NCBI GenBank assembly: GCA_001972305.1 | Contig: BDDD01001809.1 | Location: forward strand, 266,488-330,487 | Length of the DNA stretch: 64,000 nt | Direction: 5' to 3' | DNA from: Cephalotus follicularis | Lineage: Eukaryota; Streptophyta; Magnoliopsida; Oxalidales; Cephalotaceae | Shown: positions 5,466-64,000 of the stretch, piece after piece | Numbering within the stretch: the first letter of the stretch is position 1 | How the letters are laid out: each line of letters starts with the position of its first letter | Notes under the pieces: generated by a model | Seen by the model: the letters and a program-made list of their open reading frames with translations, nothing else | Database searches by the model: none | What the model was told of the DNA's origin: nothing | Translations under genes and position numbers: made by a program

Positions 5466-8118
5466 TGTAACGCCCGGTATTTTCCTGAATGTAATATTTT
5501 GATTTATGATGTAATCATTAATCTTGATTTAATGAGAATGTTGAGCTTTTGGACTCAAAAGATGCTTGCAAACCCTAGTCATGGACTTAGAAATGAAGTG
5601 TGTATGTTAAAGCTTGAAACGGCGCTGTTTTGGCCAAAAGACATCGACGTCTTTTGGAAAGACGTCGACTCCTTTGTGAGCTAGGGCACACGTGAATGAA
5701 TGGGCATGCACGTCGACTCGAGAAGGAGGAATCGACACCTTCTTACGAACGGAAAAAGACATCGACGTCTAGGGAAAGACGTCGACTCCTTTGTATGAAT
5801 GGCCAGCACGTTCTTCGTCTGCAGAGGCAACATGCACGGGATTTGTTTAGGGGCTTACCTAACGCCTTTTTGAGTGCTCTGTGGAGTGTTGTGCATGTGG
5901 GTGTGTTGCCAGAACATGCCTCACATGGTTCGTGCAAGGGGAATCCTCACCTGCTACCTGCAATGTAAAGAATGGTTAAAGAATGTAAAAGAAATGCAGA
6001 AAAAGGAGTGGGTGAGAGAGAGTTGGATTTTGGCTGTCAAATGCCAGAAGGGGGATGTCGGGGGAGAGCCTTCTGCATAAAGGACACCCTCCCCACTTGT
6101 CTATCTCGTTTTACAACACCAGAAGAGAGAGAGAGTGTGAACCAGTGACTGTGTGTATTCCACCATTGTTGAAGCTTGGAGCTTGGACCTTGAAGCTACA
6201 GGTGCAGCTAAGGGACGGATCAAGAAGGGATGCTGTGACTTCGTGGAATACTAAAAGAGGTGGACTTTCGGTTTCTAACTTGAAACCAGAGGTAAGGGAA
6301 AGCCATACTGTAATTTTGGGTTTGATATTAATACATGGTTTATGGTTTTGAGATGTATAAAAATGCATGTTTCTTGTACTGGATTTGCTACTGAATTGAT
6401 GCCATGACATGCTAGATATGTTTGGAGTATCTGTGTGTTGGCTTGTTGCTATAATAAACCCGTTATTATGCACGATTTCGGATTGTTATGGCCACTGTTC
6501 AATGAATCGTGAGGTTGAAGACGACCCCGTCGAAAAGACATCTACTCCTTTATAATGACATCGACGTCTTTTACGTTTTATCTCGTTACTGACTGAGAGG
6601 GATCGACGTCTTTGGGGAAGACATCGACACCCCAGGTTGCTTACCTGGTTACTGTTGAAAAAGGCATCGACGCCTTTTAGTTAGACATCGACGCCATTTC
6701 ATGATACGTTGCCGTTTTGAGGTTCCTTCTGTAAGAAGAACAGGCTGACACTGAGACTCGAAATTTGACGCATGACCCGAAGACATCGACGTCTTTGGGA
6801 AAGACGTCAACGTCTTTGTTACTATTTGGAGCTACCTTTACCAAATGATACGGAATGATCTCAATTCCTATTAGGGTGCATTTGAGCATATGTATGCATT
6901 GCATATGTACTGTTTACTGCCTGATTGTGTACTGTTTGTGTATTGTTTAAGATTTCAAAAGTGTTGATACTCTAGAAATGCACAATGAGCTCGGAATAAG
7001 ATATTTTGAGTATGAAAATATGTATTGATCAAATAACGTATTTTCAACCGAATGATTTATACTACTGAAACTGTCACTGATATTTTCTATTGAAATACTT
7101 ATTTTCAAATGTTGTCGATTTTGGAAACATTTTGGAAAATAACTGCCTGTTATTGATCAAATCGATCACCACTCTTTACTGTACTGTTACTGTTTAAATG
7201 CACTGTGTGCTCTGTGAATTGCTTGTGATTGTGTTTGAGCTGCTAGTTGCGTGGCGGAGGTTGCCAATGATGACTAGTGGTAAGGGCGGGCCTAGGGGCC
7301 TGGAGCATGGCTAGGTGTCCCACTGTACTGTTGCCTCACCAGATTGCCCGATGTGGGGATCGTCGTGGGAGTGTAGCGTGGGGCCAGGAGTTGGCGGCGC
7401 TATAACTGTTATTGTGGTCCTATGTGGACATACTGACTGTTGTGGTCCTATGCGGACATACCGTACTGTACTATTTACTGGTCCTTTACGGACATTACTG
7501 ATTGTTGACGTAGCCCTGGCCGGGTTACTACTGCACTGTTACTGTACACATATATATTTTTTTATATATGTAATACTGATATTTTACTGTACTGATATAT
7601 GTATTTTCATATATGTATAAATTGGATCTCTACTGCACTGCATCATTTATGCATTCATATCATGACATGCATTATGTTAATCCCGATTTACTGTTATGAC
7701 TTGGCCGAGTGAGGACAAAGGCTAACCCCCTACTTTACAGATTGATGCAGTGGACTGTGGGATCAGCATGGATGAAGACCATGTTATTATTCCTATTTTG
7801 ATTATTATCTTGTTTTGTAATAAACCCATATGGATTATTGATCCAGATGTGACATCTTTATGGTTCTGTTTCTGAAGGAATTTTATTTTGTACTGTATCG
7901 CTCACGCTCCGTTTTATGGGCGATTGACTTTTATGACCTGTATTTGGGTAGCGTACGGTATGGGACGTGCGTTACGTGTTGACAGCTTATGTTCTTTTAT
8001 GCTTCCGCAACTGTTATGCTTGGAAAAGTTTTAAATTTCACGGTTTCGCATGAGCTGTATTTTATGTTAATTGCTTTTACCGCTTTAATGCTGCGTCTAT
8101 TGTAAACGGGGTGTGACA
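5466..8118 (+). mobile_element. Solo LTR K, family 1 (chromovirus-like gypsy)
   Basis: A 2653-bp LTR without internal sequence. It begins TGTAACGCCC, ends GGGGTGTGACA, and is flanked by the perfect duplication ACTAA (5461-5465 and 8119-8123). It is homologous over its length to D, L, M and to the LTRs of H and I. Parts: first TCGA-word cluster (about 5637-5790), leader-like stretch with CATTGTTGAAGCTTGGAG (about 6165), donor-like GAG/GTAAGG at 6291/6292, second word cluster (about 6529-6815), a TACTG-rich block (about 7175-7640), acceptor-like TTTACAG ending at 7740, AATAAA-type signal at about 7820, and end. Inserted in A's integrase. Confidence 0.93.
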
Positions 8119-8578
8119 ACTAACATAAGCAGAAGACCCTTAGAGCCTTTGACGTCTATCACAGCCCCTTGGCCCTTTGCACAATGGGGGAAAGACTTCG
8201 TCGGACCATTCCCAGTAGCAACAGGGCAACGAAAGTATGTCATTGTGGTAGTGGACTACTTCACCAAATGGGTAGAAGCCAAGCCCCTGGGCACAATAAC
8301 GGAGAAGAACACGTAGAGCTTTGTATGGAAATCAATCATCTATAGATCCGGAGTCTCGAGGATAATAGTGTCAGATAACGGGAAACAGTTTGATTGCGAA
8401 GCATTCTGTGACTTTTAAAAAGAGTGGAGAACCCAGAGCAATGGTCAAGCCGAGGTGATTAACAGAGAGATCATCTCGAGCTTAAAAAAGCGTCTCAAAG
8501 ATAGATAGGGTAGATGGACAGAGGAGCTACCAAGTGTACTATGGGCATATATAACCACTCCTCGGACCACGACTGATG
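8119..8578 (+). pseudogene. Element A integrase remains, catalytic-core segment
   Basis: This segment reads PLTSITAPWPFAQWGKDFVGPFP, then KYVIVVVDYFTKWVEAKPL, the opening of the integrase catalytic core (DFVGP carries the first acidic residue of the D,D-35-E triad in the family). Further on come GVSRIIVSDNGKQF-like and NGQAEVINREI-like remains around 8350-8470 that correspond to the other core motifs. It begins with K's right duplication and ends with the left duplication of the Cassandra-like LTR. Broken. Confidence 0.8.
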
Positions 8579-8979
8579 TGTGACACCCCGCTTAAAAATG
8601 GGCAAGGAGATAGAACTCTCCATGTAGATTAAGCCATCCCGAGGAAAGAGCCCTTGATGCCATCCAAAAGAAAGAGCTATCCATGAGATGAAGCCGCCCT
8701 TGTGACAGGAATGAACCGGATCCATCAAAATGGGGGAGAAGTATAGCTATGTTATATAAGAAATGATCCTAGAACCTAATCATATGAGACGCATTTTGAT
8801 GAACTGGCTGAGGAGTTAGTGGAAACTCCAAGGTTAAGCGTGCTGCGCTCAGGACAAAACTAGGACGGGTGACCTTCTGGGAAGTCTAACCAATCCATCA
8901 AGTAGGACAAAACTGTGATGCCCGTGGGGAAAAAGCGGACAATCTCTCATGTGGTTAAGGATCGGATCAGGTCTTTACA
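8579..8979 (+). mobile_element. Cassandra-like solo LTR with 5S rRNA-derived segment
   Basis: A 401-bp insertion in A's integrase. It starts TGTGACACCCCG and ends TTACA, flanked by TGATG (8574-8578) and TGGTG (8980-8984), 4 of 5 matching. Inside, 8824-8886 closely resembles the internal control region and 3' part of plant 5S rRNA (GGTTAAGCGTGCT for box A, CTAGGACGGGTGACC for box C, then CTGGGAAGTC). Near the right end AAAAAGCGGACAAT resembles the AAAGCGGACAAT phrase I associate with Cassandra TRIM LTRs. Cassandra is the TRIM family whose LTRs carry 5S promoter sequence. No second LTR or internal region is seen, so this is called solo. Exact right edge is the least certain point. Confidence 0.72.
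8824..8886 (+). other. 5S rRNA-like segment with Pol III box A and box C
   Basis: About 60 bases matching the downstream half of plant 5S rRNA with several differences. Box A is recognisable in GGTTAAGCGTGCT and box C in GACGGGTGACCTTC. The upstream half of 5S RNA is missing, so this is not a 5S gene. It is part of the Cassandra-like LTR. Confidence 0.8.
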
Positions 8980-9291: not shown

Positions 9292-12200
9292 TGTTAGGTT
9301 ATGGGTGTCCCTGTATGCCATGATATGGCTCGATTGTATATAAACACTATTGATTTAATACAATTCTAAATTCCTTCTATATTCTATATGCATATTTTAT
9401 TTAATGCAAGGCTATATGGCTCATCCCAACCAACCAAAAGGAACAAAATAATTATACGTAATTAACTGTATGTCATATAGTGCCCTGTCACACCAAAGGG
9501 TTGGATCTCGTGCCGAGAGGGCTATGAGAATGAGATCCTTATTCCCTGTGACAAATGTTCCAAGTCATAGGTTCACTTTCTTTGGGTCATTGATGAACCG
9601 TGAAGACTTGTCACATTAAGCTTGCTACCGGGTTAGCAGTGGAGGTTGGTTATCTCGTAGCCAATTGGGTTTACCCCTAAAGCTAAATGTGAGGTGTATG
9701 CTAGAGTGCATGACACTGAACATACCCACCAATAGAAAACCTATTTGGATATTCAATACCCAATGTCAATAGGATTCTGTAACGCTCGGGATTTTCGTAT
9801 AATGTAATATTTGAATTTCAAATGTAATATTATTATGGAATTAATGAGAATTATAGAATTTCTGACTTTGATGATGTTTTCCAATTCATAATGTTGAATT
9901 TTGAAAGGAAAAATGATTAAGAAATGTGAAAGGTGCATTATAAGTCAAAACGGCATAGTTTTAGGTTGAAAGCATTGACGCCCTTATGAAAGCGTTGACG
10001 CCCATGGAATCGAAGCGCATGTAAGTGCATACACATGCACGTCGATGCCTGTTGATAGTGTTGACACCCTTGAGGTAAAACGCGATAAGCGTCGACGCCT
10101 GCATGTAAACATCGATGCTTAGCGTCGAATCTCAAACACGTTTATGCACTGACAGAAAACGTGGTGCAGAGGGCAATTGGGAATCATTTCCAGGCGCCTT
10201 CACATGCGGGTTATGACGTGTTATGCATGCAATATGAGACCCTGACTTTCCAGGACTAGAAAGGATTGAACAGAGGATGCATGTGAGTGCATGCAACTGC
10301 CTTGGCAGCAAGGGGAGGACACCTGGTGCGCCATGCAACCAGGTGTGAAGAAGGAGTAAAGTTGGGCAATTATGCAGATGGAAACAAAATGCTATCTGCA
10401 TAAAACACTTTGCTCCCCTTAAAACCGAACCTAGAGAAGGAAATAACACAAAGAGACAGTGAGAATCGGTAGAGAGAAGGAGAGGGATAAACACTTTCCT
10501 CCATTGTTGGCCGATCGGAAGCTTGGGGAGCTTGAGGATTGGAGCTGCTCGAACCTGGGAGCTCAAACCACCACTATTCTAGGACTTAAAGAGGTAGACA
10601 TTCTAGTTCCTAACTTGGAACAAGAGGTAGGGGAAAGTGGTGAACTTTATACATGCAATGTTGAGTTTTAAGTTAATGTAGGGCCATTGATGATATGCAT
10701 GAATTGCATGTTGATAGGGATGAATTGGGATTGTTGTTATGGCTACTGTGATATACAAATTAACCATGCATGTGTAATCTAAATGATAAATTGAACTAGA
10801 TTGGTATGTTAATTGGATTGTTTTCCCCTAGTTTTGGTTAAAACGACGATAATGACGCTACTGGACTGTTTAAGTGTCGACGCTCAAGTTAAGCGTCGAT
10901 GCCTTAATGTGTAAAAGGCAGTAGACGTCGACGTGTAAAGAAAGCATCGGCGCCTTATATGAACAATTGTGGAAGTGTGATATTGCTTGCGGGTTGCATG
11001 TAATGATCACTTATGGATTGTATGGATTGTTGGTAGATTGATGAACTGGTTACATATATGGATAACCTGTGGTGCATACTACTTCTGTAAGGAACATTGA
11101 TGGGATTGCATGTAAGTTTGGGGTTTGGATTTCTCCCTGGAATCGAGACTGCTGAGATGATATCTCTTGATATCACAAAAGCGTCGACGCCTTTGGGAAA
11201 GCGTCGACGCCTGTGGTTCTGCTACGCCTGGGATTAAATGCACGAGACGTTGATGCTTAGAGGACATAAGCGTCGATGCCCAGCGGATAAGCGTTGGTGC
11301 TTATGCCCCTGGTTTGGATAAATTGACCCGAATTGGACCGTTAACTCTGAAACAACTCTAGATACGGCTCTAGGCACGTTTAAGCATATGATTGCATTGC
11401 ACTGAATCTAGATTGTGGATTGTTGGTTGAATTGGATTGTTACTTGCTTTAAAAATGAACTATCATTTTTAGGGAGTTGCACACATGATTTATTATAAAT
11501 CATTATTTTGTATAAATTTCTATGTTCAAACCAAAATGCAATTTTGAAAATGGATTGAAGTATGTTTTGAATGAACATACAGTTTAAAAAGGATTGTTAC
11601 ATATTTTGACAAATATGTGGTTTCAAGTATTTTATAATGCATAATTTACTTGGAAAATGGATTGTTAGATATTTCGACAAATATATATATGTTTTCAAGT
11701 GTTTATATTCGTAAATGGCTTGAAATGGACTGTGGATTGTCACTGTTGGTCACATGGTGGAGGTTGCCATGGACGGCAAATGGCGGGTTTCTCTCTAGGT
11801 GCCAGGAGTTGGCTAGAGTTACCCATGGTGGATTGGTTACTTAGCTGCATGCTAGTAACATTGGATTGTGGCCTGCTCCGTGTTGTCCGGGAGTCGGGAC
11901 AGGAGTAAGGAGTACGGCATCTGGCCCAGGAGGTGGCGGTGTCTTCATAGCATTTGTGTAATACCCTGCTTGTTCGTATATGTGTTTTACGGACTTTTTA
12001 TATTTATATATATGATGTTTTCGGGCTTTTAAATATTGTTTTGTTTTTAAGTCCGATGCCCTGTGTTTTGGGCCTATGTGGTTTGGGCTGATTGATACCA
12101 GTATGAATTTTTGGATATGTTAATGCAATGTTGGGTTGGGCCTATGTTTATAACTTTTAAATTATCAAACCAATTCCCTTTTTATTTTAAAATTCTTTTA

Positions 12201-13751: not shown

Positions 13752-13756
13752 GATTG

Positions 13757-15832: not shown

Positions 15833-17066
15833 TGTTGAGTCACAATCATGGGGAGATTGTTGAGTCTCAATCATATGTTTTAATGATTACAAATTTGCAT
15901 CTAACAAGTTTACTTGATGTGCAAGATATTACAAAATTCCACAGAAGGCAAAACCCATATGCAGGGAAAAGACATTGATCTTCCAGAAATGACATCGACG
16001 TCCGTACAAAAGAAGTCGATCCCTTTCAAGAAGACATCGACGTCTTTAGTGCCAGAAGTTACAGGTCAATTTTTAGTGAAGACATCGATCCTTATCAGCA
16101 AAGACATCGACGTCCGTACAAAAGATATCGATCCTTTTACTAAGACATCGACGTCTTTCCAGACCAATCTGCCAAAGCCAAAAAAGACATCGACCCATGA
16201 AGAAGAAGTCGACGTGATGTTCATATATTCAAAGCCTGGACATTTCCCAGAAATGACATCGACGCCTTTAAAAAGACATCGACGTCTTTTTAAATGGATT
16301 AACCCGGGAAACACGGAACGGCTACTTGGCGCACTTACAACGGGTAGTAACAGTCAAAGACATCGACGCCTTTATGAAGACATCGACGTCTTTCTACCAG
16401 CAGAGACAAAAACAAGGCTGCATCAATATATTTTTATATCCAATATGCCCAAGACTTTTGCAACGGTATAATCTGAAGAATGCTATAAATACAAGCCAAG
16501 AAACAAGCTCAAAAGGACTTGGAACAATTCTTGAACATCCAATCACAAAAGCTCAACTTGCACATCTACAAAGAGAAGAACATCAAGCTTTTGCTAAACA
16601 CTTTCATACCCAAAGCTTGCAATTTGTGTACACTTTTATATCCAACCTTTGAGAGGTTACTTGTAAACACATATTATCTTTACAATTCATTCATTATAAA
16701 AGAGGGGAGTGAACCCTTGTAAGGTGTTTGATTGATTTGCACCCGGAACCCAAAATCAAGTGTAAGGTGTTTGAATGATTTGCACCTGGAACCCAAAATC
16801 AAGTGTAAGGTGGTTTGCTTTGATTTGCACCCGTAAGCCAAAAATCAAAGGTTGCTAGTGGTACCTAGTGGAATCTCAAGGGGTTTTTGAGAAAGTGGAC
16901 ATAGGCACGGATTTGCCGAACCACTATAAATTCGTTTGCACACTCTCGAACTCTTATCTCTTTACTTACTATTGTATTAATTGTTTTCTTGTGTGCTTGT
17001 TTATGTTCATTGCTTAATTTGTAATTTCCGCATACATTATTTAAGGTTGCCATATAGGATATTTCA
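15833..17066 (+). mobile_element. Copia-type solo LTR G (SIRE/Maximus-like), copy 1
   Basis: A 1234-bp LTR, TGTTGAGTCACAATC to GGATATTTCA, with perfect duplication CTTTG (15828-15832 and 17067-17071) in F's reverse transcriptase. It has a TATA box (TATAAAT, 16484-16490), a 3-fold 43-bp repeat (16719-16850), and the phrase CCGAACCACTATAAATTCG near 16917. I associate that phrase with the 3' part of SIRE/Maximus Copia LTRs, so the lineage is by recognition only. About 14 TCGA-centred words of the GACATCGACGTC dialect lie between about 15970 and 16395. No PBS, internal sequence or second LTR follows, so it is solo. Frames open across it only translate the word array and are not genes. Confidence 0.87.
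16719..16850 (+). repeat. Three-copy 43-bp tandem repeat in LTR G, copy 1
   Basis: Units start at 16719, 16762 and 16805, each beginning GTAAGGTG and containing GATTTGCACC and a CCAAAA(A)TCAA end. The first two differ at very few positions and the third is more divergent and slightly longer. It lies about 50 bp upstream of the conserved 3' block of the LTR. Confidence 0.9.
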
Positions 17067-19650: not shown

Positions 19651-19683
19651 ATGTGTATGGTTGTGATTTCAGGACGAAATCAT

Positions 19684-19701
19684 TTTTTTAGGGGGGGTGG
19701 A
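19684..19701 (+). other. Polypurine tract of F, unit 1
   Basis: Reads TTTTTTAGGGGGGGTGGA immediately before the TGTAATATCCCG start of the first 3' LTR copy. It primes plus-strand DNA in LTR elements. The identical tract recurs at 25079-25096. Confidence 0.85.
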
Positions 19702-21227: not shown

Positions 21228-22461
21228 TGTTGAGTCACAATCATGGGGAGATTGTTGAGTCTCAATCATATGTTTTAATGATTACAAATTTGCATCTAAC
21301 AAGTTTACTTGATGTGCAAGATATTACAAAATTCCACAGAAGGCAAAACCCATATGCAGGGAAAAGACATTGATCTTCCAGAAATGACATCGACGTCCGT
21401 ACAAAAGAAGTCGATCCCTTTCAAGAAGACATCGACGTCTTTAGTGCCAGAAGTTACAGGTCAATTTTTAGTGAAGACATCGATCCTTATCAGCAAAGAC
21501 ATCGACGTCCGTACAAAAGATATCGATCCTTTTACTAAGACATCGACGTCTTTCCAGACCAATCTGCCAAAGCCAAAAAAGACATCGACCCATGAAGAAG
21601 AAGTCGACGTGATGTTCATATATTCAAAGCCTGGACATTTCCCAGAAATGACATCGACGCCTTTAAAAAGACATCGACGTCTTTTTAAATGGATTAACCC
21701 GGGAAACACGGAACGGCTACTTGGCGCACTTACAACGGGTAGTAACAGTCAAAGACATCGACGCCTTTATGAAGACATCGACGTCTTTCTACCAGCAGAG
21801 ACAAAAACAAGGCTGCATCAATATATTTTTATATCCAATATGCCCAAGACTTTTGCAACGGTATAATCTGAAGAATGCTATAAATACAAGCCAAGAAACA
21901 AGCTCAAAAGGACTTGGAACAATTCTTGAACATCCAATCACAAAAGCTCAACTTGCACATCTACAAAGAGAAGAACATCAAGCTTTTGCTAAACACTTTC
22001 ATACCCAAAGCTTGCAATTTGTGTACACTTTTATATCCAACCTTTGAGAGGTTACTTGTAAACACATATTATCTTTACAATTCATTCATTATAAAAGAGG
22101 GGAGTGAACCCTTGTAAGGTGTTTGATTGATTTGCACCCGGAACCCAAAATCAAGTGTAAGGTGTTTGAATGATTTGCACCTGGAACCCAAAATCAAGTG
22201 TAAGGTGGTTTGCTTTGATTTGCACCCGTAAGCCAAAAATCAAAGGTTGCTAGTGGTACCTAGTGGAATCTCAAGGGGTTTTTGAGAAAGTGGACATAGG
22301 CACGGATTTGCCGAACCACTATAAATTCGTTTGCACACTCTCGAACTCTTATCTCTTTACTTACTATTGTATTAATTGTTTTCTTGTGTGCTTGTTTATG
22401 TTCATTGCTTAATTTGTAATTTCCGCATACATTATTTAAGGTTGCCATATAGGATATTTCA
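21228..22461 (+). mobile_element. Copia-type solo LTR G, copy 2 (copied by the duplication)
   Basis: Same as 15833-17066 at an offset of 5395, with the same CTTTG duplication on both sides (21223-21227 and 22462-22466). It is a product of the tandem duplication, not a second insertion event. The 43-bp repeats are at 22114-22245 and the TATA box at 21879-21885. Confidence 0.9.
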
Positions 22462-25045: not shown

Positions 25046-25096
25046 ATGTGTATGGTTGTGATTTCAGGACGAAATCATTTTTTTAGGGGGGGTGGA

Positions 25097-40405: not shown

Positions 40406-41213
40406 ATCCCCCCTCCTTCAAAGAAATTCGTCCTCGAATTTACATATACTAAAACAAGTGAGGATAACTCTCCTGAATATCCTCTTCCCGTTCCCAAGTT
40501 GCCTCATCCGGACGATGAAACTAGCATTGAACCTTTCCCATCGGAATGGTTCGGTTCCTCAATACTTGTGTCTTCCGATCCAGGATTCTCACGGGTGACT
40601 CCTCGCAAGAAAGATCATCCCTCACCATAACCGAGTTACAATCCAAGACATGTGATGGGTCTCGGATATAACCTCGTAGCATTGATACGTGGAAGACATC
40701 ATGTACACTCGACAATGTAGGAGGCAAGGCTAGCTGGTAAGCTACCTCCCCAACCCTCTCTAGAATCTCAAAAGGACCAATATAGCGTGGTACTAACTTT
40801 CCCTTCCTCTTGAATCTTTGCACCCCTTTCCACGGAGATACCTTCAAAAACACGTGATCTCCAACACTGAAGGTCAAAGGCCTCCTATTCACACCATCGA
40901 CATAGCTCTTTTGCCGACTCTGCGCTGCTAGCAACTTCTCGTTGATGAACTTGACTTTCTCCGAAGTCTCCTCCACCAAATCCGACCCAAGCAATGGTCA
41001 TTCACCAACCTCGTCCCAACAGATGGGTGACCTACACTTCCTCCCATACAGTGCCTCGTATGGAGCCATACCAATACTCGCGTGATAGCTGTTATTGTAC
41101 GAAAACTCTATCAAAGGAATATGGTCTTCCCATGTCCTAGCAAAATCGATCACACAAGCCCGAAGCATATCCTCGAAGGTTTGGATGGTACGCTCTAATA
41201 GTCCATCTGTTTG
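40406..41213 (-). pseudogene. Element H integrase C-terminal and chromodomain-like remains
   Basis: A polypurine tract (CCCCCCTCCTT on +, 40409-40419) adjoins the LTR. On the minus strand, the integrase core end reads [40 protein letters not shown] and [19 protein letters not shown]. The C-terminal domain follows with [39 protein letters not shown] and SSVHDVFHVSMLRGY. A chromodomain-like end is nearest the LTR. The right edge holds L's duplication GTTTG (41209-41213). Same order and motifs as I. Confidence 0.85.
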
Positions 41214-46012: not shown

Positions 46013-47514
46013 GACTGTTTTTCCATAACAGTCGGCGGGATCCTTGAGTCAGTCGACTGTTCTTCCCAACAGTCGACTTGTTCATCACGAGTAATCAGTA
46101 GTCGGCTGTCTTCCTTCGACAGTCGACTGTTCTGGGCAAAAATGAATGCACAGCCGACTGTTCTAACATGACAGTCAGTTGGATCCTAGAGTCAGTCGAC
46201 TGTTCTTCCCAACAGTCGACTTGTTCATCACGAGTAATCAGTAGTCGACTGTCTTCCTTCGACAGTCGACTATTCTGGGCAAAAACGCATGCACAGTTGA
46301 CTGTTCTTACATGACAGTCGGCTGGATGATTGAGTAGTCGACTATTTTACTTAAACAGTCGGCTGTTCTGGGCTGGGCAGTACCAGTAATTCACTTCTAA
46401 ATCTATTCAACAAGCAATTGAAACTTATCCACACGTATTCAGACCCCAGTATATCACCAGTAGTCATATCATGGTCTAAAATACAACTCAATTCATGCAT
46501 TATTCTCCGTTTTCATCATAGTTCAAATGAAATCCAAACATGGTATTGCATGAAAACCAATCCAAAACTGCATACAAAATTCAGTGTGCATGTCAGGTTA
46601 TTTATTAACAGTAACCACAACATCAATACAGAAATCCACAGCCAAACAACTACACCATTCATTTATAACATCATTACTCTTAAACTCAAAATGCATGCAT
46701 AGAATTATCTACCATTTCCCCTACCTTTGATTTCAAGTTAGAAATCGGAAGTTCACCTCTTTGTGTCTCCTTTCCAGTATCCTTGAGCCTCCCAGTAGCT
46801 CCAAGAATAGTCCAATAGCTCCAATCTGTGCTCCAAGCTTAATAATGGAGAATCCTCTCAATTTCTCACTATCTTCTCTCTCAATTTCTCACTATCTTCT
46901 CTCTCAATTCCTCTGGTTCTTTCTTATCAGGTTGCAGGGTGAGAGAGACGAAGGGAAGAGAGCATTTATGCAGTCCCCTCTCCCTCAACCCTTTTTGCAT
47001 GGCACTAAGGGCCCTTCTCTCCCATTATCACTTGCATGCACACACACTTGTCACTCTTTCTCTTCCCCTCTGTCCTTGTAGGTCCTGGCATGGTGGTGCA
47101 TGCTCAACACGTTTATTGCATGTGATGGCTTCTAAAGATGCTCTTCCCATGTCAATTTGCATGTGATTTCGCCATTTGTCACAAAAACAGAGCATGAACC
47201 AGTCAGCTGCCCTTCCCTGGCAGTCGGCTGTTCACCTGGAAGTCTGTTGCCAAGTGTAACGACAGTTGGCCAGTCTGATGGTTCCTCACACCAGTCGACT
47301 TCCCCACACCTCAGCCTAACAGTCGGCTGGTATATCGCACCAGTCGGTTGTCCAAGCCAAAATTCCCATAATTATACTTAGAATCACACTTCTAAATGCT
47401 CTAAGTTAATTTAAATTCAAGATATCAACCAGAAAATTCACCTTTTATTAATTGAAGGTAAAAACTATATCGAGGATTACAATAATACATGAAATCGAAT
47501 TTCCGGGCGTTACA
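46013..47514 (-). repeat. 5' LTR portion of element H
   Basis: It matches the 3' LTR of H (from about 38930 to 40405) with few differences and ends TTCCGGGCGTTACA, followed by the AAAAC duplication. It is about 1.5 kb against 2.65 kb for the other copy. CAGTCGACTG-type words lie at about 46025-46370 and 47200-47350. Confidence 0.88.
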
Positions 47515-47819
47515 AAAACAAAGCCACCATCCAGGATAAATATGGAAGACGATCAAAGTGTCGACGGTTATTTTAAGGCGTCGACGTTTACACCCTTGAA
47601 AGCCAAACACGTTGATGACATGACTATGGGCGTTGACGTGTTCCACATTGCCAAAGCGTCGACGTTTCTAATGAAGGCGTCGATGCTTAGCGCATAGAAA
47701 ACAAAACAACGAAATTCAAAATAAATCAAAGAGTCCAAACAACATAGCATATAAAAGAAGGCATAAACACAACATATATCGATAAACATGTAAGCATAGA
47801 AATGAGATATTACAATTGG

Positions 47820-48809: not shown

Positions 48810-51316
48810 TGTAACGCCCAGAAATTTCAGGAATTGCAATTTCATAATGTAAATGTACTTTATTTGAGGAATTAATAAAAGGATGGATTTTCCGAATTTG
48901 ATGATGTTGATTTTAAATCAATTAAGTACTTAGAAGTGAGATTGCTTAGTAGGTACACTAAGAGCAGTCGACTGGTAAAGTAGACCAGCCGACTGGTTGA
49001 CTGCGTATGGGAGCAGTCGACTGGTGGGATGAACCAGTCGACTGGCCAACTGTCGAGCCACATGGTAACGATCTGCCAGGCGAGCAGCCGGCTATTGGGT
49101 GTGGACAGCCGACTGGATCGTGCTTTGTTTTGTTGCATGTGACAGAAATCACATGCTACAGCTCACAGATGGAAGTGGGTGCCATCTGTGTTTCATGCAG
49201 CTAAGGAATGGAAGAAGAGGACACCTGTGGATCATGCAAACTTCATGGGGGGAAGGAGTTTAGACCTGTAAGTGTGTGCATGCATGTGGAGAAGGAAAGT
49301 GGCATTTAGTGCCATGTGAGGGGAGCTAAGGAAGAGAGGGAGAGAAACACTCTGCATAAAACATCTTCCCTCATCTCCTTCATCCTAGTACTGAAAAGGT
49401 CTAAGAACCAAAAAGGATAGTAGACAAAAACACAAAGAAAATAGGGAAGGGAGTGTTTCTCCATTGTTGAAGCTTGGAGCTCAGGTTGGAGCTTTTGGGC
49501 TGTTCTTGGAGCTGCTGGGCTTGGAGTTGGAACTTCTCGGGAGCCCAAAACGTCACTGTTGGAACACAAAGAGGTGGACTTAGAGATTCCTAACTTGGAA
49601 TCAAAAGGTAGGGGAAGTTGTCATGGTATTTTGAGTTTAAAGTTACTGCATGTTCTATGATTTGAATGCCTGGTTGCGTGAGTTGTAGCTACCGATTTTA
49701 GGACGTGATTGCTACTGTTTTTCATCTACTATGCTTGCTACTGAGAATCAAATGAGATTATGTGCATGCATGTTGAACCTTATCATAGGTGTTGACTTGC
49801 ATGATGAAATGTATGTTGGATGTGGTGTTATATGGACGATATGATAACCTGTAGTTATGTTTCTATCCTTGAGCTTGAATTGTCTGTTTACAACGATCCG
49901 TTGGAGTAGATAGATCAATTTGCATGCAACTGGTTCTCGGGGCAACCGACTGTCGAAGGAAGACAGCCGACTACTCAATGGAACCAGTCGACTGTCAATG
50001 GAAAGCAGTCGACTGTTCATACTTCATCCTGCCCAGAAAGTGGCGGGAAGAGTGATATGGGTAATACTTTTGAACGGGTGTACAGTAACAGTCGACTGTT
50101 GAAGGATAACAGCCGACTGCCTAATGGACAGTCAACTGGTAGAAGGAACTAGCCGACTATCTGGTCTTGCTTGACCCAGAATAGCCGACTGGTAAGGATT
50201 CCAGCCGATGGGTTGGACTGCTGTTGGACTCTTCTTGCTTAAAACAATGCGAAACGATCCCGGTTCCTGCTAGGATGCATTTGAGCATTTGTATGCATTA
50301 CATATACACTATTTACTGCCTGTTCTGGACTGTTTGTAATCGGATTATGATTCTAATGTATTGTTATTTTAGAAATGCATATATAAATTTAAACTACTAT
50401 GTTGTGTACGAAATGAATATTGTTTTCGTATTTTCGAACATCTTTGGAAAGCGATTTCCACTACTGAAACTGTTTAAAAGTATTTTCTACTGAAAATGCA
50501 TATTTCAATGTTGTCACTTTTGGAAACATTTTGGCAATGAACTGCCTGTTGTGGATCTAAACGATCACTACTGTACTGTACTGTTACTGCTTGGATTCAC
50601 TGTTTGCTTTTTGAATTGTAATGTGTTTGTGCTTGAGCCACTGGTTGTATGACGGAGACTGCCAACGCTGGTTGTATGACGGAGACTGCCTCGCTCGGTT
50701 GCCTGGTGTAGGGACCAGAGTGGGAGTGTAGCGTGGGGCTAGGAGTTGGCGGCGTTACATATACTGCCTGTCTGTTGTGGTCCTTTCTGGACATCCTATA
50801 CTGGCTGTTGGTCCTTCTCGGACATTAATGTGCCTGTTGATGTAGCCCTGGCCGAGTTACTACTGTACTGTTGTTGCATACATATATTTTCATGTATATA
50901 TATGCCCCACTGATATTTTACTGTACTGTTAAACATATATATTTTCATATATATAAACTGGGATTTCTACTGTACTGCATTATCTATGCATTCATATCAT
51001 GATATGCTTTAATGTTAATCCCGAACTACTTTTATGACTTAGCCGAGTGATGACAAAGGCTAACCCCCTACTTTATAGGTTGATGCAGCTGACTGGTGGG
51101 ATAGCATGGACGAAGAGCAAGTCTTAGCTTGTAGTTGGCTTATGTTCTTTCGCTTTGTAATAAACTGTTATGTTAAGATTCTAATGTACCGTTCTGTTGG
51201 TTTTGATAAGACTGAGCTTTCTTTAATGTACTGTGATCACGCTCCGTTTGTGGGCTTTTAACAATGGTTTGTAATTGGGTAGCGTGTAGTATGGGATACA
51301 CGCTACGTGTTTTCGG
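48810..51316 (+). repeat. 5' LTR portion of element I
   Basis: Collinear with the 3' LTR 55292-57979 until near its end. CAGTCGACTG-dialect clusters at about 48965-49115 and 49945-50205. A donor-like AAAAG/GTAGGG at 49607/49608 and an acceptor-like TTTATAG ending at 51078. The block TACTGTACTGTTACTG is near 50573. Confidence 0.9.
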
Positions 51317-55262: not shown

Positions 55263-55291
55263 GGACGAAATTCCATTGAAGGAGGGGTGGA

Positions 55292-57979
55292 TGTAACACC
55301 CGAAAATTTCATGAATTGTAATTTCACAATGTAAATGTACTTTATATGTGGAATTAATAAAAGGATGGATTTTCTGAATTTGATGATGTTGATTTTAAAT
55401 CAATTAAGTACTTAGAAGCGTGATTGCTTAGTAGGTATATTAAGAGCAGTCGACTGGTACAGTAGACCAACCGACTGGTTGACTGCGTATGGGAGCAGTC
55501 GACTGGTGGGATGAACCAGTCGACTGGCCAACTGCCGAGCCACGTGGTAACAATCTGCCAGGTGAGCATCCGGCTTTTGGGTGTGGACAACCGACTGGAT
55601 TGTGCTCTGTTTTGTTGCATGTGACAGAAATCACATGCTACAGCTGACAGATGGAAGTGGGTGCCATCTGTGTTTCATGCAGCTAAGGAATGGAAGAAGA
55701 GGACACCTGTGGATCATGCAAACTTCATGGGGGGAAGGAATTTAGACCTGTGAGTGTGTGCATGCATGTGGAGAAGGAAAGTGGCATTTAGTGCCATGTG
55801 AGGGGAGCTAAGGAAGAGAGGGAGAGAAACACTCTGCATAAAACGTCTTCCTTAATCTCCTTCATCCTAGTACTGAAAAGGTCTAAGAACCAAAGAGGAT
55901 GGTAGAGAAAACACAGAGAAAAGAGGGAAGGGAGTGTTTCTCCATTGTTGAAGCTTGGAGCTCGGGTTGGAGCTTTTGGGCTATTCTTGGAGCTGTTGGG
56001 CTTGGAGTTGGAACTTCTGGGGAGCCCAAAATGTCACTGTTGGAACACAAAGAGGTGGACTTATAGATTCCTAACTTGGAATCAAAAGGTAGGGGAAGCT
56101 GTAATGGTATTTTGAGTTTAAAGTTATTGCATGTTCTATGATTTGAATGCCTGGTTGCGTGAGTTGTAGCTACTGATTTTAGGACGTGATTGCTACTATT
56201 TTTCATCTGCTATGCTTGCTACTGAGAATCAAATGAGATTATGTGCATGCATGTTGAACCTTATCATAGGTGATGACTTGCATGATGAAATGTATGTTGG
56301 ATGTGGTGTTATATGGACGATATGATAACCTGTAGTTATGTTTCTGTCCTTGAGCTTGAATTCTCCGTTTACAATGATCCGTTGGAGTAGATAGATCGAT
56401 TTTCATGCAATTGGTTCGCGGGGCAGCCGACTGTCGAAGGAAGACAGCCGACTACTCAATGGAACCAGTCGACTGTCAATGGAAAGCAGTCGACTGTTCA
56501 TACTTCATCCTGCCCAGAAAGTGGCGGGAAGAGTGATATGGGTAATACTTTTGAAAGGGTGTACAGTAACAGTCGACTATTGAAGGATAACAACCGACTG
56601 CCTAATGGACAATCAACTGGTAGAAGGAACAAGCCGACTATCTGGTAATGCTTGACCCAGAAAAGCCAACTGGTAAGGATTCCAGCCGACTGGTTGGACT
56701 GCTGTTGGACTCTTCTTGCTTAAAACAATGCGAAACGATCCCGGTTCCTGCTAGGATGCATTTGAGCATTTGTATGCATTACATATACACTATTTACTGC
56801 CTATTCTGGACTGTTTGTAATCGGATTATGATTCTAATGTATTGTTATTTTAGAAATGCATATATAAATTGAAACTACTATGTTGAGTACGAAATGAATA
56901 TTGTTTTCGTATTTTCGAACATCTTTGGAAAGCGATTTCCACTACTGAAACTGTTTAAAAGTATTTTCTACTGAAAATGCATATTTCAATGTTGTCACTT
57001 TTGGAAACATTTTGGCAACGAACTTCCTGTTGTGGATCTAAACGATCACTACTGTACTGTACTGTTACTGCTTGGATTCACTGTTTGCTATGTGAATTGT
57101 ACTGTGTTTGTGCTTGACCCACTGGTTGCATGGCGGAGACTGCCAGCGCCGGCTAGTGGTAGGGTTGACCTAGGGGCCAGGAGTTGGATGGGTGACTCAC
57201 TGTACTGTACTGTTACCTCGCTCGGTTGCCTGAAGTAGGGACCAGAGTGGGAGTGTAGCGTGGGGCCAGGAGTTGGCGGCGTTACATATACTGCCTGTAT
57301 GTTGTGGTCCTTTATGGACATCCTGTACTGCCTGTTGGTCCTTCTCGGACATTACTGTGCTTGTTGATGTAGCCCTGGCCGGGTTACTACTGTACTGTTG
57401 TTGCATGCATATATTTTCATGTATATATATGCCTCACTGATATTTTACTGTATTGTTAAACATATATATTTTCATATATATAAACTAGGATTTCTACTGC
57501 ACTGCATCATCTATGCATTCATATCATGACATGCTTTAATGTTAATCCCGAACTATTTTTATGACTTAGTCGAGTGAGGACAAAGGCTAACCCCCTACTT
57601 TACAGATTGATGCAGCTGACTGGTGGGATAGCATGGACGAAGAGCAAGTCTTAGCTTGTAGTTGGCTCATGTTCTTTCGCTTTGTAATAAACTGTTATGT
57701 TAAGATTCTAATGTACCGTTCTGTTGGTTTTGATCAAACTGGGCTTTCTTTAATGTACTATGATCACGATCCGTTTGTGGGCTTTTAACAATGGTTTGTA
57801 ATTGGGTAGCGTGTAGTATGGGATACACGCTACGTGTTTTCAGCTTATGAATCTTATGCTTCCGCAACTGACATCTTGTTTATAAGTTTAAATTTTTATG
57901 GTAATTGCATGAGCTGAATTTATGTGTTAATTGCCTTTACCGCTTTAATGTTGCCTTCTCGGAAAAACGGGGTGTGACA
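55292..57979 (+). repeat. 3' LTR of element I
   Basis: A complete family-1 LTR of 2688 bp. Word clusters of the CAGTCGACTG dialect at about 55446-55600 and 56425-56695. Leader with CATTGTTGAAGCTTGGAG near 55943, donor-like AAAAG/GTAGGG at 56088/56089, acceptor-like TTTACAG ending at 57605, AATAAA signal near 57686, and end GGGGTGTGACA. Confidence 0.92.
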
Positions 57980-58294: not shown

Positions 58295-58410
58295 TATTGA
58301 TCTTTCCCCACAATGGATGCAAGTGACAACGAATGTCACGATATTTGTTACGGAAACTACTACAAAAGAGCATCATCTGTTAACCGTAAAAGATTATCAC
58401 CTTTAATGGT
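58295..58410. other. Short flank right of element A
   Basis: About 116 bp between the right duplication of A and the start of the next LTR-like sequence. It has no recognisable coding or repeat feature. It may be the DNA into which both elements inserted. AATGG at 58406-58410 would be the left target duplication of the next element. Confidence 0.4.
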
Positions 58411-58842: not shown

Positions 58843-61501
58843 TGTAACGCTCGAGATTTTCATGTGTTATAATTTCATGATGTAAATGTACATTTATTGT
58901 GGAATTAATAAAATGATGATGTTTTCCAAACTCTAATGATATTGATTTTGGGATAAAAATGTAAAAGAAATGTAAAAAGGGCAATTTGAAGTAAAACGAC
59001 TATGTTTTGAGAAAAACGCGTCGACGCCTTTTCGAAACGCATCGATGCCTTTGGAACAGAGAGACGCACATAACTGCATGCACATGCACGTCGATGCAGG
59101 CGAGAACATCGACGCCCTCGTGTAAAAAGGGGAAAGACATCGACGTCTCAAGAAGACGTCGATGCGTAACATCGAATGACGGGCATGTTATTCTGCTGAC
59201 AGAGTAACGTGCTAAGGGAAACAATTCTAGATCGCTTTGCAGGCGTCTAGGAGCACCAAATGCAATGTGTTGTCCATGCGGCCCGATGCCAGACATGCAC
59301 CGAAACATGTCCTCAACCTTTGGCATGCAAGGGGGTTGAACCTTCATAACCTGCAATCTGCAAAAATGAAGAGAAAAGGGACAAAAACAGTAAGTGAAGG
59401 TGGAGGACACGGGGGAGGGTGCATGCAACAGACATAGAGAAGGAGAGAGAGAGTTCCCCAAAGCATAAATGCTCCTCTCTTCATCCTTGGTTCGGCTAAA
59501 ACACCAGAGTAAGAAATAGAAAGTGAAAGAGAGAAGGGAACCACCATTGTTGAACCTTGGAGCTTGGAATTTGAAGCTTGTGGCTAGCAGCAACGGGATG
59601 ATCCTTGGAGCTGTTGGGGACGGTTCTAAGACTAAAATAGGTGGACTTTCTTGTTCCTAACGTGAAACAAAAAGGTAGGGGAAGCCATAACTGTATTCTT
59701 GAGATTAATGTTCATGCCTGGACTATGGTTTTGGTGCATAGATTGCATGACTATTGAACTGTTTTTGACCACTGGATCAATGCCATGTTATGCTGGATAT
59801 GTGATATGTAACTGCATGTTGGTTTCCTACCTTGATTACATGTTATCTTGCATGTATGTGGATTTTGATGGTCACTGTTTGTCACATCGTGAGGAAGAAG
59901 ACGATTGGGGCTCAAAACACGTCGACGTCTTTGAATATCATCGATGCCTTTGAGTTTTCTGCTTGGATATTGACGTATTATACGTCGACGCCTAAGGTTC
60001 CTACCTTAACGCGTCTACGCCTTAAGCAATACGCTGACGTTTAAGGTTCCATATCTTGAGCGTCGATGCATGTAAAGATGGACATCGACGTCTTCAAATA
60101 GTAGGAAGCGTTGACACTAAGGACTTGAACGTCGACGCTGAGGGACAAAGATATCGATGCCTAACAATAGACATCAACGCCTTCTTGTAATGTTTGGAAG
60201 TTTTCTTACTTAATGATACGAAATGATCCCGATTCCGATTAGGATGGTTTAGAGTATTTGTATGCATTGCATATGCACTGTTTACTGCCTGTTTATGGAC
60301 TGTTTATAAATTGATTATGATTTTCTAAGTATTGTTACATTGGAAATGCATATGCGAGTTGAAAACTACTATGTTGAGTACGAAAATATAAAATGAATAT
60401 TGTTATGTTTCTGAACATCTTTGGAAAGCGATTTCCACTACTGAACTGCTTCAAGTATTTTCTATCTATTATAAATACGTATTTCAAATATTATCACTTT
60501 TGAAAATATCTTGAAATGAACTGCTTGTTGTTGATCTAACGATCACTACTGTACTATTTACTGCACTGTTTACTGTGATTATTCACTGTTTACTCTGTGA
60601 ATTTACTGTGTTTGTGCTTGAGCCACTAGTTGCATGGCAGAGACTGCCAGCGCCGGCTAGTGGCATGGTTGACCTAGGAGCCAAGAGTTGGCTGGGTAAC
60701 TCACTGTACTGTACTGTTGCCTCGCTTGGTTGCCTAGAGAAGGGACCGAAGTGGGAGTGTAACGTGGGGCCAGGAGATGGCAGCGTTACACATGCTGCCT
60801 GCCTGTTGTGGTCCTTTTACGGACTTACTGTACTGCCTGTTGGTCCTTCTCGGACATTACTGTGCCTGTTGATGTAGCCCTGGCCGGGTTACTACTGTAC
60901 TGTTATTGCATACATATATTTTCATATATATGTCCTTATAGATATTTTACTGTACTGCTAAAGTATATATATATTTTCAGATATATATATAAACCGGTAT
61001 TTTCTACTGCACTGCATTATCTATGCATACATTTCATGACATGCATGTAATGTTGATCCCAAAGTACTCTTATGACTTAGCCAAGTGAGGACAAAGGCTA
61101 ACCCCCTACTTTACAGATTGATGCAGCGGACTGGTTGGACTAGCTTGGACAAAGAACAAGCCTTCATGTTGTTGTTGTTGGTTTATATTCTTCTGGTTTG
61201 TAATAAACTGGTTTTCTTTAAGGAATACTGACGTACTGTACTGATGGTTATTTGTTGTACTTTATCTTGGGTTAATGTATTGTGATCACGCTCCGTTTCG
61301 TGGACTTTTAATAATGATTGACATGTTTGAGTAGCGTGCAGTATGGGATGCACGTTACGTACTTTCAGCTTATGAGTTTAATGCTTCCGCAACTGATATC
61401 ATGTTTGAAAAGTTTAAATTTTATGGTTTTTGCATGAGCTGAATCTTAATGGTAATTACCTTTACCACCTTATGTGTGTTTGTCGGAAACGGGGTGTGAC
61501 A
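58843..61501 (+). mobile_element. Solo LTR M, family 1
   Basis: A 2659-bp LTR from TGTAACGCTCGAG to GGGGTGTGACA. The flanks are TTTTT (58838-58842) and TTTGT (61502-61506), matching at 4 of 5, in a T-rich site. It is homologous in full to K and D. Word clusters of mixed GCGTCGACGCC/GACATCGACGTC dialect lie at about 59020-59170 and 59925-60185. Leader near 59545, donor-like AAAG/GTAGGG at 59674/59675, TACTG-rich block near 60545-60960, acceptor-like TTTACAG ending at 61116, AATAAA signal near 61203. Confidence 0.88.
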
Positions 61502-62563: not shown

Positions 62564-62711
62564 GTATATTTGGGGCCTTCCAACGAGTGGGGTCCATATA
62601 GTGTATTTGGGGCCTCCCAAAGAGTGTGGTCCATGCAGTGTACTTGGGGCCCCCCAACGAGTAGGGTCCATGTAGTGTATTTGGGTCCTCCCAACGAGTG
62701 GGGTCCACGTA
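62564..62711. repeat. Four-copy 37-bp tandem repeat
   Basis: Units start at 62564, 62601, 62638 and 62675, and a fifth unit's first bases lie at 62712. Each unit reads GTGTATTTGGGGCCTCCCAA then CGAGTGGGGTCCATGTA with one to a few changes. Because 37 is not a multiple of 3, frames running through it on the minus strand repeat a peptide every 37 codons at best and are not genes. It lies in the presumed third-family LTR. Confidence 0.92.
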
Positions 62712-64000
62712 GTGTATTTTGATACTAGATAATGTGGTCTAGCATTCATGACCTTCATGACGGAGGTGAGGATCATGAATGAGAAATCTCATTTAGGTCT
62801 CATACAATACAATCAATAATCCATCCCGTAGTTGTGACCCAAAATCATGTATGCTTTTAAATGATAGGAACCATTTGTAAAGGATCTCATGAATCCACAT
62901 CCCTGAAATCATGTAATATCAATTCTATAGTCATAAATCATTTTTCATATTCAATGGCCATTTTCATTTCCATAATCTATTTTGTAATCAATATTCATAT
63001 ATCATTTGGTTGGTTCCTATCGAAGTTATAATGAATGGAAAGGAAGTCCAAATGGGAGCATTCGTATCAGGATGTCCCATGGAACTATCCTAACCATTTT
63101 GAAATCCGTAAAACAATGGGGAGGAAGCCCAAATAATATATCCACGTCCAGATATCCCAATGCAACTAACCTAACCATTTTTGAAAACCATTTGTATAAA
63201 ATCCCCTTTTTATGAGACTTTCTTTAAAGATTCGTTTGAAGATTGATCCGTAGTTTAAAAATGTCACAAGAGGATTTTCATAGGCTAAAAGGCCTTAGGG
63301 AGGCTTCCTATGAAATCCATTTGTATAGAAATCCATTTCGGATCAACACCATATAAAACAGTTGAGTTTAACTAAAACAGGGCACTAAACGTCGATGCTT
63401 AGCCCTAGGCGTCGACAGTTTTAAAAAGCATAAGTATAAAGAATGAACGGTTTGTTTGAAAGCATAAGGCATCGACTGTTTGGTTTAACACATAAAAGTG
63501 TCGACAGTTAAGAAGAAAGCATCGACGGTTTTGGAAGAAATATCGTTTTGCAAAACAGTTCACAATTCGGTGAAAACCATATCTAAAACAGTTCAAAACC
63601 CTTTAAGATTCATCCCATAGCCCGTGAATTGAGAGAAGGCAAGAACTCATCTCCTCTTAATTCAAAATCTAAACCTTATACCATATGCACATCCATCCGT
63701 ATATTCGTATGTATATATATACAATCATGTATCCATATAATTACAATTCGTACACATATCAATCCATATAACCATTTAGAATGCGTGAATGCAATGCAAG
63801 TAGTATAACCTACTCTAGTGATCTACCATTCGTATACAACCGTCCCATACCAGCGTATACAAACGGGATCAAGGCAACAACCATCTGAGCACCTACCATC
63901 GGAGCAATGTATAGCCTACCTGTTACCAATTGAGTTGTGAGTTGGGAGGGCTTGCAGCAGAATCCACGAACTGCTACCTCCTCTAAGCTTCACTCGTCGT

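Follow-up and report, generated by a model that had tools for sequence, protein, structure and literature searches.

The window analysed here, meaning the whole 64-kb stretch of DNA, contains several long terminal repeats (LTRs) of Gypsy and Copia retrotransposons, within which short TCGA-centred words are gathered in arrays (Table 1). Elements E and H carry Gypsy-type protease, reverse transcriptase (RT) and integrase between their LTRs. Pfam scans, which covered ORFs of at least ~110-180 aa at a few loci, gave no chromodomain match in the scanned ORFs of the Gypsy elements, which we take to be Tekay/Del-like on the basis of their LTR ends. The Copia assignment comes from locus L024, where copia gag and RVT_2 domains lie on the plus strand upstream of a polypurine tract at 9567; this tract and the LTR start are the same as in the word-bearing Copia LTRs, which are presumably SIRE-like. 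An LTR-like array was also observed at L024 1-700 and L026 8823-9486. The two copies of the 5.4-kb tandem duplication in the window are 99.98% identical.

Table 1. LTRs and word arrays in the 64-kb window
Feature	Coordinates	Strand	Remarks
Gypsy LTR A	5466..8118	+	TGTAACGCCCG...GGGGTGTGACA ends, homology; GACATCGACGTC dialect
LTR A word array 1	5640..5789	+	~290-430 bp upstream of TATA-like box
LTR A word array 2	6526..6804	+	~455-710 bp downstream of TATA-like box
Gypsy LTR B, 5' part	9778..11290	+	GCGTCGACGC-type words; arrays 10006-10132, ~10874-10937, 11139-11280
Solo Copia (presumably SIRE-like) LTR	15833..17062	+	ends approximate; sits inside Gypsy pol reading frame
Solo Copia LTR word array	15991-16390	+	cores 100-490 bp upstream of TATAAATA box
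Second copy of solo Copia LTR	21228..22457	+	within 5.4-kb tandem duplication; ends approximate
CAGTCGACTG array and LTR tail	28379..30115	+	array 28379-28567 upstream of tail 29526-30115
Gypsy LTR H, taken as 3' copy	37768..40406	-	CAGTCGACTG dialect; ends approximate
LTR H arrays	40090-40242 and 38924-39338	-	second array with 143-bp tandem block
Gypsy LTR D, probably solo	41214..43150	+	mixed GACATCGACG/GCRTCGAYGC words; arrays 41397-41580, 42367-42521
Partial LTR, taken as 5' copy of H	46013..47515	-	CAGTCGACTG array 46049-46366
Gypsy element E 5' LTR, 3' end missing	48810..51314	+	CAGTCGACTG dialect; arrays 48964-49116, ~49947-50110
Gypsy element E 3' LTR	55292..57978	+	CAGTCGACTG dialect; arrays ~55446-55600, 56392-56581
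Gypsy LTR F	58843..61501	+	mixed GCGTCGACGC and GACATCGACGTC words; arrays 59017-59179, 59920-60161

Exact copies of GACATCGACGTC, CAGTCGACTG and GCGTCGACGCC occur 19, 22 and 4 times in the window; shuffle means were close to zero for all three, and none of 100 dinucleotide shuffles reached the count of any of them. As 6 of the 19 GACATCGACGTC copies sit in the second copy of the tandem duplication, 13 are left. Across the genome, GACATCGACGTC occurs 87,434 times (both strands summed) as against 392 for the reversed pattern, CAGTCGACTG 197,377 as against 939, GCGTCGACGC 73,186 as against 121, and AAAGNNNTCGANNNCTTT 121,192 as against 900; these counts are of non-independent events, because a variant fixed in one ancestor and then amplified is counted repeatedly. 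The genome total exceeds half a million words, and the excess of 135-605-fold over the reversed patterns, together with the window counts, confirms the words noted in the first-pass annotation as real and far more frequent than chance would allow.

The same annotation had described the LTRs bearing these words as not homologous between families, which holds for Copia against Gypsy and fails among the Gypsy LTRs. LTRs A, D and F and the pair of element E are alike at their starts and/or ends and share stretches of 61-79% identity; further relatives are the LTR that begins at 9778 and two tails, one with its end at 30115 (62-65% identity to other Gypsy tails over 29526-30115) and one with its end at 37768 on the minus strand. 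In a comparison of 24 arrays with their words masked, none of the 45 Gypsy-Copia pairs (15 x 3) gave a match at E<=1; the test is weak for short matches because masking leaves little sequence. The annotation gives no positions for its 'LTR G' and 'solo LTR C'; the word-bearing Copia-type LTR identified in the window is the insertion at about 15833-17062, with a second copy at about 21228-22457. Each family examined has one dialect of words or one mixture. Homologous zones of Gypsy LTRs contain different dialects, dialects differ among Copia LTRs as well, and the same word is found in a Copia LTR as in a Gypsy LTR amid spacers without detectable similarity. Words are thus shared without a shared context between Copia and Gypsy, as had been proposed, whereas the Gypsy LTRs owe their shared context to common descent.

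The common denominator of the words is TCGA, most often in the form RTCGAY (229 of 356 clustered sites). A sample of 20 stretches of 10 kb, placed arbitrarily, contained 538 TCGA tetramers; 56 of these form the centre of a perfect 10-base palindrome, as against 0.5-5.3% for the other 15 palindromic tetramers, and among the 16 palindromic cores TCGA alone displays a sustained excess of symmetric arms over offsets 1-5, in clustered sites only. The arms covary: over 38 clusters with 207 TCGA sites the summed complementarity is 3.24, compared with a mean of 2.31 in 1000 shuffles between clusters and a mean of 3.02 (maximum 3.23) in 1000 shuffles within clusters. Distances between adjacent cores peak at 19-22 bp, which accounts for 101 of 352 gaps as against 94 of 1474 for four control cores. 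The spacing, arm-covariation, TCGA-context and adjacent-pair spacer analyses were run with one copy of the 5.4-kb duplication masked by N, and L032, which lacks words, was excluded from the analysis of spacing and word orientation. Dense arrays of short motifs in the same orientation occupy non-coding parts of the elements: non-palindromic word forms have a single orientation in nearly every LTR counted, the exceptions being L023 (3 sense, 2 antisense) and H46k (4 and 1).

The spacers had been called unrelated and the arrays unlike ordinary satellites. In 121 pairs of neighbouring words with a distance of 19-23 bp, the right 9-base spacers are 30% identical as against 28% in random pairing and the left 3-base spacers 36% as against 29%; the 36% of the left spacers equals the maximum over 500 re-pairings, so that a trace of likeness remains on the left; the word arms are 59-65% identical as against 41-42%. 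The spacers are therefore largely unrelated, and head-to-tail repetition of a whole unit with its spacer is confined to local arrays of 20-21 bp and 143-bp blocks detected by Tandem Repeats Finder, which restrict the statement about satellites. A duplicated block was also found within the array of L062, and word number varies between copies. A coding function of the arrays was considered because of the 21-bp period and the open frame at 15905-16468; it was rejected, as the ORF has no Pfam match and small indels between words are seen by eye among copies.

Comparison of copies shows that word letters are steadier than spacers in the replicating lineages of three of the four families. Variants shared between copies affect 4 of 144 word columns and 36 of 312 spacer columns in Gypsy A, 6 of 108 and 59 of 318 in Copia-16k, and 16 of 204 and 59 of 345 in Copia-L012, with no reduction in Gypsy E (15 of 204 and 19 of 319). 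Pooled over the four, shared variants amount to 41 of 660 in words and 173 of 1294 in spacers, while private variants (161 of 660 and 348 of 1294) are not depleted in words; in the two D1 families words have fewer private variants as well, which blurs the contrast between shared and private variants there. Gypsy E has private variants more often in words (73 of 204 against 83 of 319, p=0.019), and its word flanks diverge more than its spacers (5.5% against 3.9%). After insertion no slowing was observed in two LTR pairs, with changes at 10 of 157 word positions and 111 of 2347 others in the E pair, and 13 of 234 and 28 of 1242 in the H pair. Words were defined on the majority letters of each alignment, which gives some bias towards conservation. 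L039, which has the same query match as the window, was omitted from the LTR-pair and variant counts, and the window's 55k LTR from the Gypsy E divergence and variant counts; L067 (no words; Copia pol upstream) and L068 (fewer words) were left out of the shared and private counts and kept in the divergence counts. The suggestion of selection for a common site is supported in three families and not in Gypsy E.

Each of the eight LTRs or LTR-like sequences inspected has words upstream of a TATA-like box, at distances of 50-612 bp; the boxes were picked by eye. We consider it somewhat probable that the words constitute promoter-proximal arrays of putative binding sites for sequence-specific DNA-binding proteins, common to both superfamilies, which would help LTR retrotransposons to get transcribed or to evade silencing. 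Proteins binding these words would probably read them as dimers or from either strand, and the 21-bp spacing, corresponding to two helix turns, may set the sites on one face of the helix. A given dialect would then correspond to a single reader or to a small group of them, and families could have come to share a reader by convergence or by takeover of short array segments.

For the CAGTCGACTG dialect, sequence features suggest that the reader is most likely an AP2/ERF protein of the CBF/DREB type, since the common alternative form of this word contains GCCGAC. The T/C form CAGCCGACTG is present 177,392 times as against 21,361 for the CpG-decay form CAGTTGACTG (repeated counting of amplified variants applies to CAGCCGACTG too, and the T/C change may have run in either direction); the T/C exchange is thus tolerated about 8 times more than CpG decay, which fits an RYCGAC site of the CBF/DREB type. 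Contexts of the RYCGAC type are found at 204 of 356 clustered and 49 of 313 isolated TCGA sites. A universal CBF/DREB rule was rejected, as words with ATCGAT, in which RYCGAC is missing, show no avoidance (25 as against about 17 expected from the clustered-site table), and hence a single rule of this kind does not cover every dialect. The bZIP C-box, to which the first-pass annotation had attached a conceivable regulatory role, is a weak candidate and was rejected as the common denominator: its core GACGTC is present in GACATCGACGTC and absent from CAGTCGACTG and GCGTCGACGC with their 197,377 and 73,186 sites.

The arrays might instead be old minisatellites, that is, 20-21-bp tandem repeats born in LTRs whose spacers drifted, leaving functionless words by descent. 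The short tandem arrays and 143-bp blocks, the duplication in L062, the residual left-spacer likeness (36% against 29%), the homology among Gypsy LTRs and the absence of constraint on words in Gypsy E all speak for this. However, CpG-rich words should be the first to go under neutral decay, yet the T/C form outnumbers the CpG-decay form about 8-fold, and CpG observed/expected is merely 0.27-0.59 outside words; right spacers are near random, arms covary symmetrically, and Copia and Gypsy have words in common without detectable common spacers, so that we regard this origin as quite unlikely. The sharing of words could also reflect the copying of one family's array into others by recombination or template switching, in which case dialects would record a history of transfer. 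Dialects do depart from the LTR-tail tree, whose well-supported branches require the CAGTCGACTG label to have changed at least twice, and one spacer match of 21 bp, in inverted orientation, connects a Copia array with an untyped LTR-like array (95%, E=0.003); but the tree has only ten rows with moderate support for its E-F branch (80/87) and could be distorted by recombination inside LTRs, and no Gypsy-Copia spacer similarity survives word masking. The spacer GTTACAGGTCAA, with 3,038 genomic copies as against 67 backwards, does not settle the matter, and such exchange strikes us as distinctly improbable.

A role of the palindromes at the RNA level, through hairpins or intermolecular pairing in element RNA (dimerisation, packaging, template switching), appears to us highly improbable. 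It would account for the folding of all seven arrays, which is better than that of dinucleotide shuffles (z below -2, from -2.3 to -6.2; +1.7 to -1.5 in four stretches outside arrays), and the downstream array of Gypsy LTRs would fall in the 5' leader if the TATA-like box is correct. Palindromes, however, give low folding energy anyway, and in the two Copia LTRs whose words could be positioned, 13 of 14 words in one and all 16 in the other precede the TATA-like box and hence fall outside the leader. A narrower form of the DNA-binding-site explanation holds that silencing marks are removed by an element-encoded, VANC-like protein that binds the arrays, and that other families have acquired the words and use this protein in trans. 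The single orientation of non-palindromic words in nearly every LTR counted, the differing word number between copies, an extra ORF (PF20167) between the Copia RT and the 3' LTR start in L024, and the similar biology of VANDAL/VANC (PMC5735166) favour it; against it, the three ORFs scanned in element E have protease, RT and integrase domains, with no extra protein, and we consider this version unlikely.

If promoter-proximal binding arrays are the correct reading, the same docking arrays have arisen in, or been acquired by, unrelated retrotransposons time and again, and much of the genome's transposons could be acted on by a single host or element protein or by a few of them. Because dialects differ between related LTRs and coincide between unrelated ones, these LTRs would offer a natural experiment in the coevolution of sites and readers, and the long-standing question of how retrotransposon promoters evade silencing and compete for host factors would become testable. 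It is conceivable, though doubtful, that the two superfamilies converged on a coded system of a few palindromic dialects, each with its own trans factor, in which a switch of dialect is a switch of reader; the arrays, with more than half a million words, would then be interchangeable keys to transcription or anti-silencing shared by competing parasites.

No description of such arrays was found by title or abstract opening among the literature matches listed, which comprise open-licence PubMed Central papers. VANDAL elements are DNA transposons. Their VANC proteins are anti-silencing proteins in Arabidopsis (PMC5735166, PMC10398659), and the first source describes non-coding regions in which short motifs of the same orientation form dense arrays that evolve by tandem repeats and differ between related elements, with the VANC6 motif found in an unrelated element too (PMC5735166). 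The present arrays resemble these in their density and non-coding location, in tandem duplications and copy-number variation, in their differences between related elements and in the recurrence of a motif in an unrelated element. They differ in that the VANDAL motifs are of 8-9 bases, whereas here TCGA-centred near-palindromes lie near a promoter box in LTR retrotransposons of two superfamilies. For insertion sites of LTR retrotransposons a weak preference for palindromes is reported (PMC6911290); palindromes and LTR retrotransposons are common to both cases, the palindromes there being target sites and here lying inside LTRs. CRT/DRE elements, RCCGAC and RYCGAC, are described as bound by CBF/DREB AP2/ERF proteins (PMC7570135, PMC4552142). 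CAGTCGACTG is like them in containing GTCGAC (RYCGAC) on both strands, with GCCGAC in its main variant, while the ATCGAT words do not fit. To our knowledge CRT/DRE sites require neither palindromic symmetry nor a 21-bp spacing. Host-factor sites in plant LTRs include the heat element of ONSEN and the W-boxes of EVADE (PMC12786077). By analogy, the LTR promoters described here may likewise recruit host factors; ONSEN and EVADE are single-family cases, whereas the present words are found repeatedly in both Copia and Gypsy.

The window contains nested LTR retrotransposons, whose short TCGA-centred near-palindromes, here termed words, fall into three classes: D1 (GACATCGACGTC-like), D2 (CAGTCGACTG-like) and D3 (GCGTCGACGC-like), the class used by an LTR family being its dialect. 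The words described in the first-pass annotation exceed chance, with 19 exact D1, 22 D2 and 4 D3 words (11-base form) in the window, against shuffle means of 0.00, 0.01 and 0.00. The searched genome (1.58 Gb, 9746 contigs) contains 87,434 D1, 197,377 D2 and 73,186 D3 words and 121,192 instances of AAAGNNNTCGANNNCTTT, against 392, 939, 121 and 900 for the same patterns read backwards; D1, D2, D3 and CAGCCGACTG total over half a million sites. The open pattern CAGNNNNCTG occurs 653,329 times (186,500 backwards), with TCGA in the middle of 30% of these, where even odds would give 1 in 256. The word pattern is real and strongly non-random, and no description of such a pattern was found in the literature searched.

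Among the 16 palindromic tetramers, only TCGA has arms that stay more complementary than expected across offsets 1-5 (1.33, 1.52, 1.34, 1.26 and 1.14 times), the excess for ACGT being 1.28 at offset 1 only. The TCGA excess is restricted to clustered sites (343 clustered and 307 isolated compared), and the arms of 207 TCGA sites in 38 clusters are more complementary than after shuffling either across or within clusters. The joint notation covering the D1 and D3 forms, AAAGRCRTCGAYGYCTTT, is itself palindromic. Gaps of 19-22 bp account for 101 of 352 distances between neighbouring TCGA sites (gaps up to 90 bp), versus 94 of 1474 for the pooled control cores GATC, ACGT, AGCT and TGCA. The arms of adjacent words agree, while their right spacers are near random and their left spacers resemble each other a little more than chance would give.

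Coordinates of LTRs, arrays and neighbouring features (L012, L024 and L026 are other loci of the same genome)
Feature	Sequence	Position (strand)	Remark
Gypsy LTR A	window	5466-8118	
Gypsy LTR B	window	from 9778	related to A, D, E, F
Gypsy LTR D	window	41214-43150	
Gypsy element E, LTR copies	window	48810-51314; 55292-57978	
Gypsy LTR F	window	58843-61501	
Gypsy LTR H	window	~37768-40406(-)	46013-47515(-) taken as its partial partner copy
LTR tails	window	29526-30115; 37768-38339(-)	related to A, D, E, F
Copia-16k LTR	window	~15833-17062	second copy ~21228-22457
Tandem 5394-bp copies	window	14614-20007; 20009-25402	head to tail, 99.98% identical
PF04195 ORF	window	34803-35417(-)	Transposase_28, putative gypsy type transposon
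37-bp tandem repeat	window	62560-62719	4.3 copies; consensus unit without TCGA
Five further TCGA sites	window	63388-63529	stretch without LTR assignment
PF20167 ORFs	L012; L024	8113-9522(-); 7781-9178(+)	Transposase_32, putative plant transposon protein
CAGTCGACTG arrays	L012	6550-6611; 7641-7723	outside any assigned LTR
Third Copia LTR	L024	at 9573	
Another array context	L024; L026	1-700(+); 8823-9486(-)	AAAGAAGTCGACGTCTTT-like, then TATATAAAC box and TCAATAAA

The earlier claim that the LTRs are not homologous between families fails within Gypsy, where A, D, both copies of E, and F have a common start (TGTAACGCCCG-like) and/or a common end (GGGGTGTGACA) as well as long homologous stretches; it stands for Copia versus Gypsy. 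With words masked, none of 45 Gypsy-Copia pairs (24 arrays compared) matches at E<=1, which upholds shared words without detectable shared context, although short shared segments could escape detection, the masked arrays retaining no more than tens to a few hundred bases each. The best cross-type masked match is an inverted 21-bp spacer that links the Copia array with an LTR-like array of no assigned type (E=0.003). Unmasked, Gypsy and Copia arrays match each other via the words.

Gypsy LTRs A, B, D, E and F carry their arrays in two zones on either side of a TATA-like box (picked by eye), one upstream and one ~450-875 bp downstream, with a few stray cores elsewhere. The same zones hold different words: A uses D1, B uses D3, D and F use mixtures, and E, H and the LTR that ends at 30115 use D2. 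In a tree built from ten LTR tails the D2 label requires two changes, forced by well-supported branches; the nearest relative of E is F, which uses D1 and D3 (80% identity; branch support 80/87).

The Copia insertion in the window breaks a Gypsy pol frame; it consists of a solo LTR belonging to a SIRE-like family, Copia-16k. Nine of ten further copies have exact D1 words and none has D2, the tenth being without words. Its kin in L012, Copia-L012, shares its polypurine tract, matches its U5 at 72% identity over 134 bp, and uses D2 words. Of eight further copies of Copia-L012, seven likewise have D2 words and one, with Copia RT upstream, is without words. The third Copia LTR follows the polypurine tract common to the other two, with Copia gag and RT upstream on its own strand, and has decayed D3-like words, judged by inspection. 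Copia thus uses D1 and D2, with D3-like words in one LTR, and Gypsy all three. Among 40 fetched copies (L029-L068), 21 have exact D1 without D2, 17 exact D2 without D1 and two neither, a purity within families that is expected because copies were selected by similarity. The tandem 5394-bp copies, each with portions of Gypsy pol and the Copia solo LTR nested within, are due either to recent duplication or to an artefact of assembly. Both loci with PF20167 ORFs have Copia-type LTRs with word arrays; in L024 the ORF lies between RT and the start of the 3' LTR, and its predicted product is a candidate element-encoded factor.

Words are constrained in three of the four families compared. Variants present in at least two copies mostly originated in replicating lineages, and private ones mostly later. 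Shared variants in word versus spacer columns number 4/144 vs 36/312 in Gypsy A, 6/108 vs 59/318 in Copia-16k, 16/204 vs 59/345 in Copia-L012 and 15/204 vs 19/319 in Gypsy E. Pooled, they number 41/660 vs 173/1294 (private, 161/660 vs 348/1294), and the shared:private ratio differs between words and spacers (odds 0.51, p=0.0003). In both D1 families words also have fewer private variants than spacers (p=0.013 and 0.007), and in Gypsy E they have more (p=0.019). With the core excluded, flanks diverge less than spacers in Gypsy A (3.1% vs 5.6%; 79/5000 as low) and Copia-16k (5.5% vs 9.3%; 125/5000). In Copia-L012 the figures are 11.8% vs 15.4% (as low in 186/5000 block permutations), in an alignment made uneven by varying word number between copies. 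Gypsy E runs against the trend (word flanks 5.5%, spacers 3.9%). Between the two LTRs of a pair, identical at insertion, words show no slowing in E (10/157 vs 111/2347, p=0.34) and are faster in H (13/234 vs 28/1242, p=0.009).

In methylated transposons CpG decay should outnumber other changes, and CpG is depleted outside the words (o/e 0.27-0.59). By far the commonest D2 single mutant is the T/C form at position 4: it makes up 31 of 54 across the window plus random stretches (core CpG decay 2) and 94 of 158 across all loci (core CpG decay 11). Genome-wide, on both strands, CAGCCGACTG occurs 177,392 times versus 21,361 for CAGTTGACTG (backwards controls 1,330 and 4,173), these counts being non-independent events and the T/C change being possible in either direction. 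CAGCCGACTG, the C form of D2, contains GCCGAC, the classical DRE core, and RYCGAC is listed among CBF-type motifs, according to PMC7570135 and PMC4552142; D2 therefore points to AP2/ERF proteins as putative readers. The case is weaker for D1 and D3, because there is no avoidance of ATCGAT words.

Direct observations are the sharing of words between superfamilies, their position, symmetry and spacing, the constraint in three of four families and the variable word number. The inference drawn is that proteins bind the words, that the spacing would place their sites on the same helix face, that each dialect would have its own reader, and that the arrays may benefit transcription or anti-silencing. 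A role in RNA structure is also possible since the arrays fold better than shuffles, although in the two SIRE-like Copia LTRs nearly all words lie upstream of the promoter box. In their putative working the present arrays are like the motif arrays of VANDAL elements described in PMC5735166; they are not classed with these, since membership would require a reader protein.
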